Assembly: GCA_019120275.1 (NCBI GenBank)
Contig: DWVL01000063.1
Location: 1 to 59,351, forward strand
Length of the DNA: 59,351 bases
From: Candidatus Mediterraneibacter excrementavium
GTDB lineage: Bacteria; Bacillota; Clostridia; Lachnospirales; Lachnospiraceae
Direction of reading: 5' to 3'
The notes beneath the pieces are model-generated. The model was not told the origin of the DNA. It did not search any database and saw nothing but the letters and a program-made list of their open reading frames with translations. The position numbers and the translations under genes are program-made. Below are positions 6,479 through 29,680 of the stretch, piece after piece (within the stretch, counting starts at the first letter, position 1; each line of letters starts with the position of its first letter).

Positions 6479-6486
6479 ATTTCTTT

Positions 6487-6570
6487 AATCCGGGACGTAG
6501 TAAAATTGAATTTTACTACGTCCCGGATTGAATTTTACCCTGTCCCAAATTGAGTTTTGCCCTGTCCCAA
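6487..6570 (+). repeat. Palindromic repeat, copy A
   Basis: A 43-bp perfect palindrome (6487-6529, odd centre base) built on a 33-bp core whose left half is GGGACGTAGTAAAATT. It is followed by degenerate 22-bp units of the form AATTTTACCCTGTCCC. Near-identical to copy B (7795) and sharing its core with copies C (9220) and D (29634). It follows purC, where it could also act as a bidirectional terminator, and it ends just before the channel gene's ribosome site. Confidence 0.9.
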
Positions 6571-6584
6571 AAAGGGGGATTACT

Positions 6585-7793
6585 GTGAAAAACCAAACGC
6601 TGGACTCTATTCGATACCGCATCTACGAGATTCTTGAGGTCCGTTCCGGCACAGACCGGGTTGCCAGGATTTTCGATATCGGTTATCTACTGACAATTAT
6701 CCTGAATCTTTCGGTCAGTATTATGTATACATATGAGAAATACCGCATGAGCTGCGGACCTGCTCTGCTGCGGATTGAAAATATTACCGTGGCAATGTTC
6801 TGCGTGGATTATATCCTGCGCCTTTTTGCTGCGAAGTATATGTATCCCGAAGCAAAAGGGTTCCGCGCTGTGCGGAAGTATATCCTGTCCTTTACCGGGA
6901 TCATCGACATGCTGTCCTTTCTCCCATACTACCTGCCGGTCTTCTTTCCAACAGGCGCCGTAGCTTTCCGGATGCTGCGGGTCATGCGGGTATTCCGGCT
7001 CTTCCGGATCAACGCCTACTATGATTCTCTGCGGCTGATCACGGACATCCTGAAGAGCAAGCGCCAGCAGCTTTTCTCTTCAGTATTTACGATCCTGATC
7101 CTCATGCTCGCCTCCAGTCTGTGCATGTACAGCCTGGAACATGAGGCGCAGCCGGAAGTATTTTCCAATGCATTTTCCGGCATCTGGTGGTCAGCCTCCA
7201 CGCTTCTGACTGTCGGTTACGGAGATATTTATCCCATCACCACGCTTGGAAAGCTGTTCGGCATTTTCATTACATTCCTTGGTGTAGGCATGGTCGCCAT
7301 CCCAACCGGTATCATATCCGCCGGTTTCGTTGATCAGTACTCCCGCATTAAACGCATGGCGGAATACGGGCAGGAAGAAGATGTCCATTTCATTAAGATC
7401 CAGCTTACCGACCGGGATCCATGGATCAATAAAACGATCGCCCAGCTCCACCTTCCGGAACGTGTTATTGTAGCCGTTGTGCAGCGCAATCATCATGTTC
7501 TTGTCCCGCGGGGGAATCTCATGCTTCGCAAGGACGATATAATGGTACTTGGCGCAGAGTCATTTCAGGATAAAGAACATATCCGCCTCAAGGAAATCAC
7601 CCTGCAGAAGAATAATCCGTGGAATGGCCGGCGCATACGTGATCTGGATATATCCCGGCATTCCGTGATCGTGCTCATCAAGCGTAAAGACAAAGTCATG
7701 ATCCCGAACGGGAATCTCGTACTGAGAGAAGGAGATATGGTGATCCTGTACTCAGAAATGCGGATTCCGGAAGCGGAAGAAATTGAAATATAA
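6585..7793 (+). CDS. Voltage-gated potassium channel with RCK/TrkA-C domains
   Basis: Inner-membrane K+ channel. 402 residues from GTG 6585, chosen because AAGGGGG lies 6 bp upstream. The frame opens 19 codons earlier but those codons are repeat sequence. S1-S4 region with an arginine-rich S4 (RMLRVMRVFRLFRI), then a pore with selectivity filter TVGYGD, then S6. The cytoplasmic C-terminus carries two TrkA-C-like modules (DPWINKTIAQL and NPWNGRRIRDL, each ending in a hydrophobic D-x-V/M-I-L strand). This suggests nucleotide or ion gating of opening. The gene lies between direct repeat copies A and B, which looks like an inserted cassette. Confidence 0.92.
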   Translation: MKNQTLDSIRYRIYEILEVRSGTDRVARIFDIGYLLTIILNLSVSIMYTYEKYRMSCGPALLRIENITVAMFCVDYILRLFAAKYMYPEAKGFRAVRKYILSFTGIIDMLSFLPYYLPVFFPTGAVAFRMLRVMRVFRLFRINAYYDSLRLITDILKSKRQQLFSSVFTILILMLASSLCMYSLEHEAQPEVFSNAFSGIWWSASTLLTVGYGDIYPITTLGKLFGIFITFLGVGMVAIPTGIISAGFVDQYSRIKRMAEYGQEEDVHFIKIQLTDRDPWINKTIAQLHLPERVIVAVVQRNHHVLVPRGNLMLRKDDIMVLGAESFQDKEHIRLKEITLQKNNPWNGRRIRDLDISRHSVIVLIKRKDKVMIPNGNLVLREGDMVILYSEMRIPEAEEIEI

Positions 7794-7794
7794 T

Positions 7795-7877
7795 AATCCG
7801 GGACGTAGTAAAATTGAATTTTACTACGTCCCGGATTGAATTTTACCCTGTCCCAAATTGAGTTTTACCCTGTCCCC
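7795..7877 (+). repeat. Palindromic repeat, copy B
   Basis: Near-identical to copy A over about 80 bp and in the same orientation, so A and B form direct repeats around the channel gene. The 43-bp palindrome spans 7795-7837. The last roughly 17 codons of the Phd-HipA-like gene, including its stop, are read from this element on the minus strand. Confidence 0.9.
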
Positions 7878-9107
7878 ATATTCAAATTCCTCTTCCGTAT
7901 ACGGCTTTCCTTCCTCCAGCCTCTTCCTCGCTTCTTTGCTGTAGTTCCCGCTGCGGCAGATCTCCACCGCCGGCTCCAGCAGATACCGAAACCGGGCGTC
8001 CAGCATTGTCTTATAGAACTTTTTCCTGACATCTGACAAGAATTCCTGATCATCTATGAACTGCCAGATTTCCGGCAGTTTTTCTTTTATGACCGGGACG
8101 ATCTCCCGGACAGCCGCCGATATTTCCGGCTCGTAATCCGAACAGAGCATATCCGGATATCCCGCTTTCTGTCCGTTGACCAGCAGGGCGGCTTTCGGAA
8201 ACAGTAGCGTCCGCTTCAGGATTTCCTTCCTGTCCGGCAGAATCTCATTTTCCATGGCATGCTCAGACAGGGCCGGAAATAGTGTGCTTCCGTTATCATA
8301 GATCGAAGACGGCCTCACCGGTCCAGTTTCTGACATAAGATATCCCCAGTTCCCCATATGCCGGTCAAAATTTCCGAGAAATGCATCTCCTACAAATCTC
8401 CGGCACCAGATTTTCCATAATTCATCCGCTGCCGGAGCCAGATCCTCGTCCCGTTGCAGTGTATTTTTAATCTGTTGAATATCCGGAATGCGCCCGATCT
8501 CCCGCGAATCATAATGCTTCCGCAGATAGCGGGCGAATTCGATCAGCTTCTCTCCCGGCGGGACGAAGTTTCTGCAGGCGACAATGATCTCCCCGTTCCG
8601 GGTCCCCAGAAATGTTTCGTGTACGTCATAACCTATGATTGCAAGAATATGACTGGACAAATATTCCGAGAGGGCGTTATTGACATAACTGGTATCCAGC
8701 TGATTCTGTCTTGTATGATTTTCAGCATACTTAATAAGAAAAAAAGTCCCATCCGGCGCGATCAGGCCATCCTTACGGTCGGAACCGCCATAATCCGCGA
8801 GGCGGTCCTTCTCCCACGCATCAAAATTCTGAAGCTGTGTGGGATACCGGATCCCGTACCTGCCTTTCTTCTCCCCGACCACGTACCAGCTTTTTCCAAG
8901 TCCGCCGTCTGTGATGCAGCCGCCGGATTTTTTCAACCTGGCATATGACTCGAGACGGCGCATCGCCGCTTCATAATTTTCCATGCTCATGATCACCAGA
9001 TCGCCGTAGCCGTTCTTCGTAACATAAACCGGGCCTTTCGTCCGGTGACACAGATCCGAGATCTCTGACGTATTCTTCAGTTCTTTGATTGGTATAATCT
9101 TCGTCAT
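7824..9107 (-). CDS. Phd-type antitoxin domain fused to HipA-like (CtkA-type) kinase
   Basis: 427 residues. Residues 1-53 look like a Phd/YefM antitoxin DNA-binding domain (IIPIKELKNTSEISDLCH, then VYVTKNGYGDLVIMSMENYE). The rest resembles HipA-like/CtkA kinases: FFLIKYAE with a candidate ATP-lysine near residue 126, catalytic-loop-like GNFDRHMGN at about 245-253, metal-site-like SSIYDNGS near 269. ATG 9107 is preferred over an upstream codon because AGGAGG lies 9 bp before it. The C-terminal tail GDRVKLNLGQGKIQSGT comes from repeat copy B. Family knowledge says Phd domains repress and HipA kinases phosphorylate; having both in one chain is the oddity. Toxin action is inferred. Confidence 0.8.
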   Translation of the reverse strand: MTKIIPIKELKNTSEISDLCHRTKGPVYVTKNGYGDLVIMSMENYEAAMRRLESYARLKKSGGCITDGGLGKSWYVVGEKKGRYGIRYPTQLQNFDAWEKDRLADYGGSDRKDGLIAPDGTFFLIKYAENHTRQNQLDTSYVNNALSEYLSSHILAIIGYDVHETFLGTRNGEIIVACRNFVPPGEKLIEFARYLRKHYDSREIGRIPDIQQIKNTLQRDEDLAPAADELWKIWCRRFVGDAFLGNFDRHMGNWGYLMSETGPVRPSSIYDNGSTLFPALSEHAMENEILPDRKEILKRTLLFPKAALLVNGQKAGYPDMLCSDYEPEISAAVREIVPVIKEKLPEIWQFIDDQEFLSDVRKKFYKTMLDARFRYLLEPAVEICRSGNYSKEARKRLEEGKPYTEEEFEYGDRVKLNLGQGKIQSGT

Positions 9108-9139
9108 AACGCGCGCCCTCCTCTTCATTTTAAGGTGGG

Positions 9140-9158
9140 ATAATTATACCATAATTAT
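9140..9158 (-). promoter_or_regulatory. Extended -10 promoter overlapping twin ATAATTAT sites
   Basis: Minus strand shows TGGTATAAT, an extended -10, 36 bp before the Phd-HipA-like start. The -10 is embedded in two copies of the self-palindrome ATAATTAT (9140-9147 and 9151-9158), 11 bp apart centre to centre, one helical turn. This is the layout expected for an autorepressing Phd operator. Confidence 0.6.
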
Positions 9159-9183: not shown

Positions 9184-9268
9184 GGGACACCGTAAAAGTC
9201 GATTTGGGACACCGTAAAACTCAATTGGGGACGTAGTAAAATTGAATTTTACTACGTCCCCAATTGAG
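9184..9268 (-). repeat. Palindromic repeat, copy C (inverted relative to A and B)
   Basis: Two degenerate GGGACACCGTAAAA units lead into a 49-bp perfect palindrome (9220-9268) with the common 33-bp core. Beyond the core the arms read CTCAATTGG and CCAATTGAG, unlike copies A, B and D, yet are still perfectly paired. Copies B and C are inverted repeats around the Phd-HipA-like gene. Confidence 0.9.
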
Positions 9269-29618: not shown

Positions 29619-29680
29619 GGGACAGGGTGAATCGTAATCGGGGACGTAGTAAAATTCAATTTTACTACGTCCCCGATTAC
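29619..29680. repeat. Palindromic repeat, copy D
   Basis: GGGACAGGGTGAA unit followed by a 47-bp perfect palindrome (29634-29680) with the same 33-bp core as copies A-C (centre base C instead of G). The arms outside the core read GTAATCG and CGATTAC, unique to this copy yet perfectly paired. It lies 10 bp past the tktB stop, where it may act as terminator. Confidence 0.9.

Follow-up and report, generated by a model that had tools for sequence, protein, structure and literature searches.

The locus described here raises the question of whether a HipA-type kinase that lacks a neutralising partner can be governed by self-repression alone, and it provides a compact test case for this question. 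In the window, i.e., the whole analysed stretch of 59,351 nucleotides from Candidatus Mediterraneibacter excrementavium, a Phd/YefM DNA-binding domain and a CtkA-type HipA-like kinase form one continuous polypeptide. The partners of Phd listed in the relevant passages of PMC2701414 are Fic/Doc, PIN, RelE and a MazF-like family, and HipA kinases are not among them.

The gene and its product

The minus-strand open reading frame (ORF) spans 7824-9128, and the single frame 9107-7824 (-) encodes 427 amino acids. The same single-ORF fusion is present in Candidatus Mediterraneibacter quadrami (L008) and Candidatus Mediterraneibacter guildfordensis (L009), with 95-96% identity. Translation likely starts at the ATG at 9107, since this codon is preceded by the Shine-Dalgarno-like GAGGAGGG, while the alternative in-frame ATG upstream, at 9128, lacks such a sequence and is missing in L009. 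The original prediction of one polypeptide combining a Phd-type N-terminus with a HipA-like kinase is borne out by a single ORF in all three copies; the opposing case that it had named, in which the N-terminus belongs to a separate gene joined by error, did not occur in any of them. The two other copies end in ...DMNTAGG or ...EMKTAGG. As the last 17 residues differ in the window copy, the activity of this particular protein could be altered. The features of the locus are summarised in Table 1.

Table 1. Features assigned at the fusion locus, with positions in the window.
Feature	Position	Strand	Basis or remark
Putative operator-promoter ATAATTATGGTATAATTAT, twin palindromic ATAATTAT, 11 bp apart	9140..9158	(-)	Repeat search and conservation
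Shine-Dalgarno-like GAGGAGGG	9116..9123	(-)	8 nt 5' of ATG 9107; read from sequence
Phd/YefM DNA-binding domain (assigned), residues 1-53	8949..9107	(-)	PF02604 and profile of free-standing relatives
Linker, residues 54-104	8796..8948	(-)	Low model confidence at 55-98
CtkA-type HipA-like Ser/Thr kinase domain, approximately residues 105-385	7953..8795	(-)	Sequence, profile, fold
Catalytic loop GNFDRHMGN, residues 245-253	8349..8375	(-)	Alignment A3
Window-specific tail, residues 411-427	7827..7877	(-)	Reading runs into dispersed repeat element
Dispersed repeat element, one copy	7794..7876	(.)	Outside the system
Dispersed repeat element, inverted copy upstream of the gene	9184..9268	(.)	Outside the system

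The kinase half

Residues 106-380 match the kinase CtkA (3akj) with an E-value of 5.7e-32 as a single sequence and 5.8e-107 as a profile. The structure model of this half is mostly confident, and Foldseek returns CtkA (E 1.1e-18) followed by HipA and HipT chains. Furthermore, the PADLOC model PDC-M03A matches the kinase at E 9.1e-22; no PDC-M03 model matches any of the four partner proteins of related kinases that were scanned. The Pfam model HipA_C (PF07804) reaches 25.5 bits, which is below its cut-off of 30.5; L021, a free-standing relative, exceeds this threshold with 56.8. In alignment A3, comprising 31 sequences of which three are the fusions, K126, N246, D248 and R249 show no variation, and N253 and D271 almost none. 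Presumably, these include the ATP-binding lysine (K126), the catalytic Asp/Asn pair (D248/N253) and the metal-binding aspartate (D271) of the HipA family. The predicted HipA/CtkA-like kinase with the catalytic loop GNFDRHMGN is supported by both the CtkA match and the conserved kinase residues.

The N-terminal domain and the linker

The assignment of the N-terminus to the Phd family rests on sequence. Residues 3-53 match PF02604 at E 4.7e-7, with 29.9 bits, just above the cut-off of 29.8; another scan gives 32.6 bits, and a profile built from free-standing Phd relatives matches the N-terminus of the fusion at E 9.3e-32. Over the N-terminal 105 residues, the fusion shares 34-53% identity with 31 aligned free-standing Phd proteins. 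A profile search against solved structures ranks Rv2865 at E 0.0032, YefM at 0.19 and RelJ at approximately 0.5. Modelled alone, the N-terminus yields a poor structure (pLDDT 56.8), for which the best Foldseek E-value is 1.3 and RelJ appears at rank 9 with E 3.5; on a second look, no Phd chain is present among the 12 Foldseek matches listed, and the fold could still be that of Phd. The order of helices and strands in these poor models agrees with the Phd arrangement. In each of the three fusion-bearing draft genomes, the fusion protein is the only match to PF02604 found.

Residues 55-98, which make up most of the linker, have a pLDDT below 50 in the predicted structure and are probably disordered. 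In Phd proteins, the C-terminal tail has a toxin-binding role. Matches extending to residue 85-88 and similar RYG ends were initial hints that a full-length Phd (1-88) had been joined to the kinase at its stop codon. This possibility was rejected: a Phd-tail profile derived from 23 free-standing proteins of 86 residues scores -1.1 bits on the fusion, a value equalled or exceeded by 547 of 2000 shuffled sequences, and other reading frames score no better with it. The fusion thus appears to retain the DNA-binding half of Phd, with the toxin-neutralising tail no longer recognisable. For this reason, the term "Phd-type antitoxin domain" used in the original prediction overstates the N-terminus. 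No RelE, ParE or Doc gene adjoins the fusion, whose neighbours are ABC-transporter-like and ion-channel-like genes (named by eye).

The operator-promoter

The two copies of ATAATTAT lie at 9140-9147 and 9151-9158 and overlap an extended -10 element, TGG-TATAAT, with TATAAT at 9143-9148 (read from sequence). A consensus promoter scan did not list this element because its -35 region is weak. Twin sites about one helical turn apart over an extended -10, as described in the original prediction, are indeed found here, given the 11 bp spacing. Among the fusions, the 19-mer ATAATTATGGTATAATTAT is exact in the window and in L009 and carries one mismatch in L008; it starts 51 nt 5' of the ATG.

The 19-mer was compared with the 100-base stretch ahead of the start codon in 31 free-standing Phd genes encoding proteins of at least 84 residues. 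It occurs with at most three mismatches before 22 of the 31, at 39-46 nt 5' of the ATG, and with at most five before 27; good copies are lacking in L059, L064, L074 and L083. No such site with at most three mismatches was found in 1550 mononucleotide shuffles, which preserve single-base content alone. In the window's own assembly, which is 86% complete, 9140-9158 is the only site with 0-2 mismatches; one further site with three mismatches, against one in the control, was set down to chance. Since the left site sits in the promoter spacer, where conservation is not expected from the promoter alone, the pair is read as a Phd operator, although the conservation of ATAATTATGGTATAATTAT could partly reflect promoter strength. 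The fusion promoter would then correspond to the operator of phd-relE/parE operons that is common to free-standing Phd genes. This shared operator lends indirect support to the autorepression that had been proposed, and the fusion protein probably represses its own gene.

Relatives of the two halves

Free-standing Phd relatives in the Lachnospiraceae, the family that includes Mediterraneibacter, mostly comprise 86-89 residues. A RelE/ParE-type frame, whole or partial, follows on the same strand in 29 of 35 free-standing Phd loci, two of which supplied the RelE/ParE queries. Six loci lack such a frame, one of them ending 114 bases on. Compared with these operons, the fusion gene appears to have kept the Phd DNA-binding half together with its operator, and the kinase sits where the toxin would be. 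A RelE/ParE-type gene does occur in all three fusion genomes (L173, positions 1495-2092; also L174 and L175), at a site other than the fusion locus, and shares 30% identity with one queried toxin. It need not depend on Phd, as the small gene directly before it looks RelB/DinJ-like by eye.

On the kinase side, 60 related loci were compared, which represent the best matches with a locus rather than a random sample. An upstream partner gene with a shared small domain is found in 39 of the 60, as judged with a profile seeded with six of these 39 partners. Pfam assigns a helix-turn-helix (HTH) domain to two of four partners scanned (L015 and L024) and nothing to the two short ones; several other partners appear Xre-like by eye. 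Within the stretch examined at each locus, Phd is absent from all 60, both in the frame of the kinase and upstream. In the 54 kinases in which the start motif was found, the extension at the N-terminus does not exceed 55 residues, compared with 105 in the fusion. Six of the 60 kinase frames fall short of 270 amino acids and were omitted from a tree of 57 kinases; in this tree, the three fusions group as a single clade on a long branch, with no obvious sister group among partnered and solo kinases. The nearest kinase relatives, L034 and L047, share 53-63% identity over pieces. Both are remnants in other genomes, with no Phd part found: L034 is broken (1507-1993) and L047 truncated (1504-1788).

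In the window, the partner profile detects no partner-type or HipB/Xre gene, its weak match (E 0.041) being the fusion itself. A search of the three fusion genomes with a single Xre-containing query, run without a positive control, was likewise empty. The small domain lies directly before CtkA-type kinases in L010 (3682-3936), L012 and L026-L029. It measures approximately 67-87 amino acids when alone and occurs either alone or behind an HTH, which makes it a candidate antitoxin family for these kinases.

Conservation and distribution

The fusion is present in 3 of 58 genomes of the genus, which is a small basis; all three are draft assemblies. For the Phd part, dN/dS amounts to 0.04 between the window and L008 and 0.03 between the window and L009 (6 and 8 synonymous changes, respectively, and one other change each). 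The corresponding values for the kinase are 0.05 and 0.04, and L008 and L009 differ from one another with 0 (Phd) and 0.06 (kinase). At 0.13-0.37, based on few changes, the linker evolves slightly faster than the domains.

Beyond these three genomes, no fusion was found when 299 genomes of the family, 398 of the phylum and 392 of the order were sampled. The four samples, including that of the genus, overlap and each includes the genome from which the window derives; E-value cut-offs were 1e-10 for family and genus, 1e-15 for the phylum and 1e-20 for the order. With these cut-offs, few candidates scored per genome and matches without a locus judged by their rows alone, distant fusions could be missed. 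A scan of genome contigs returned L008, L009 and a distant kinase, L010. In plasmids and phages, Phd and kinase halves occur only separately (6 and 4 records), and no fusion was found in viral contigs using close-relative patterns.

In all three species the fusion lies downstream of the same ABC-transporter-like gene (by eye). Thirty loci around this gene were compared, from 58 genomes with a match, and 27 of them lack the fusion. In these, the ABC gene is followed by purC in two (L150, L169) and by the channel gene in three (L157, L160, L161); in L145 a Phd-like match with no kinase lies some 1.3 kb further on, in six the sequence ends within roughly 500 bases, and 15 contain none of the queried genes. 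The simplest reading of this pattern would be that the fusion was gained in one clade.

Proposed mechanism and alternatives

With modest confidence, we favour the reading that the fusion is a self-repressing, antitoxin-less kinase of the CtkA/HipA type, for which we infer DNA binding, kinase activity, an effect on growth and control through the expression level. Phd dimers would occupy the twin operator over the -10 box and thereby keep expression low. The kinase, which lacks the separate partner gene that many of its relatives have, would modify cellular targets once its level rises. A separate antitoxin might be dispensable if the amount of kinase stays low or if the kinase is restrained by the tether; the linker could exert such restraint in cis. 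Several observations weigh against this reading: the Pfam score of the Phd part is marginal, the N-terminus modelled by itself has no significant Foldseek match, and the 19-mer lies further from the ATG in the fusions (51 nt) than in the 22 free-standing genes (39-46 nt). In an elaboration that we regard as improbable, the two functions would be coupled in a bistable switch: DNA-bound dimers would keep the kinases inactive or separated until auto-phosphorylation of Phd or the linker frees the DNA, raises expression and activates the kinase, again with no separate antitoxin.

Among the alternatives, the one with most weight, although we still doubt it, is a fused toxin-antitoxin of the EzeT/CapRel kind, in which the Phd-linker portion inhibits the kinase in cis until a trigger such as a phage protein, a protease or the state of the operator frees it. 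The linker stands at the position of the Phd tail, and covalent toxin-antitoxin linkage has precedents in EzeT and in a Phd-RelE fusion of Ralstonia (PMC4826407), with CapRel being mentioned in PMC10440598. The loss of a recognisable tail, together with the low model confidence and slightly higher dN/dS of the linker, speaks against it. A non-toxic regulatory kinase tethered to DNA, with Phd placing it at the operator to act on itself or on transcription proteins, is unlikely. Such a role would suit an operator that is confined to this locus at 0-2 mismatches, as well as the single PF02604 match per genome, so that no other repressor of the family was found to pair with the operator; the frequent occurrence of kinase relatives in pairs resembling toxin-antitoxin systems (39 of 60 loci) points instead to toxin-like activity.

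A neutral or decaying, useless joining of genes could be suspected from the broken and truncated state of the nearest kinase relatives and from the window copy, which lacks its native end. It is nevertheless very unlikely, given strong purifying selection on both domains in three species and a conserved promoter. An assembly or annotation error merging two genes is scarcely credible, even though all three genomes are draft assemblies, as the same continuous frame recurs in divergent DNA beside the same ABC-type gene. The shared ORF and neighbour, and a dN/dS of at most 0.06 in both domains, thus argue against error and decay alike.

Relation to known systems

With the phd-relE/parE operons of Lachnospiraceae, the fusion shares residues 1-53 and the operator-promoter; it differs in having neither a recognisable Phd tail nor an adjoining RelE/ParE gene, with a kinase attached instead. 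CtkA (3akj) and the PADLOC candidate PDC-M03A resemble it in kinase sequence, fold and catalytic residues, whereas CtkA-type relatives have an upstream partner in 39 of 60 loci and Phd in none, and the fusion carries Phd in cis. In EzeT and CapRel, too, one chain unites a regulatory portion with an enzyme of the toxin type, and the cis-inhibition of the fusion kinase is hypothetical. The domains of EzeT and CapRel are unrelated to those of the fusion.

A parallel in architecture is HipH (YjjJ) of Escherichia coli, which passages of PMC8262856 describe as homologous to HipA, with an HTH at its N-terminus and no antitoxin gene. Both combine a DNA-binding N-terminus and a HipA-like kinase in a single gene with no adjoining antitoxin gene. 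The authors of that study propose the HTH as a possible cis-acting antitoxin, and overproduction of HipH/YjjJ is stated to be toxic in a passage of PMC9948734. In contrast to HipH with its HTH, the fusion contains Phd and a CtkA-type kinase and is preceded by a phd-relE/parE operator. HipBA, as outlined in the same passages of PMC8262856, also couples a HipA-like kinase with a DNA-binding protein that controls the operon encoding it; HipB, however, is a separate HTH protein, whereas the search at the fusion revealed no HipB, and Phd belongs to the same chain.

Among the matches listed in the open-access literature searched, whose longer lists were partly covered, there is no account of a Phd-kinase fusion, and no paper in that literature combines HipA, CtkA and Phd, or HipA and CtkA. 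The fusion would represent, in its simplest form, an exchange of modules between two toxin-antitoxin families that are unrelated: the DNA-binding half of an antitoxin and its operator are joined in cis to a kinase, and the relatives of this kinase frequently have a partner gene of a different type.

Flanking repeats

Inverted repeats do flank the gene, as the original prediction held, but they do not belong to the unit. The palindromic core of the repeat, GTAAAATTGAATTTTAC, is found 25 times across the assembly, and no repeat is present in the 230 bases 5' of the fusion gene in L009; a role as the ends of an element was rejected on these grounds. Further copies in the window lie at 6486-6568 and 29649-29665, and 22-nt units beginning GGGAC adjoin the dispersed palindromic repeats. 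The palindrome of the 7794-7876 copy may act as a terminator. In three of four other loci viewed (L004, L005, L007), a likely gene start follows within about 30 bases of the repeat.

The ion-channel-like gene (by eye) at 6528-7793 lies between two repeat copies that are 99% identical. The gene is missing from this locus in L008, L150 and L169 but occurs there in L009, L157, L160 and L161, so it seems to come and go.
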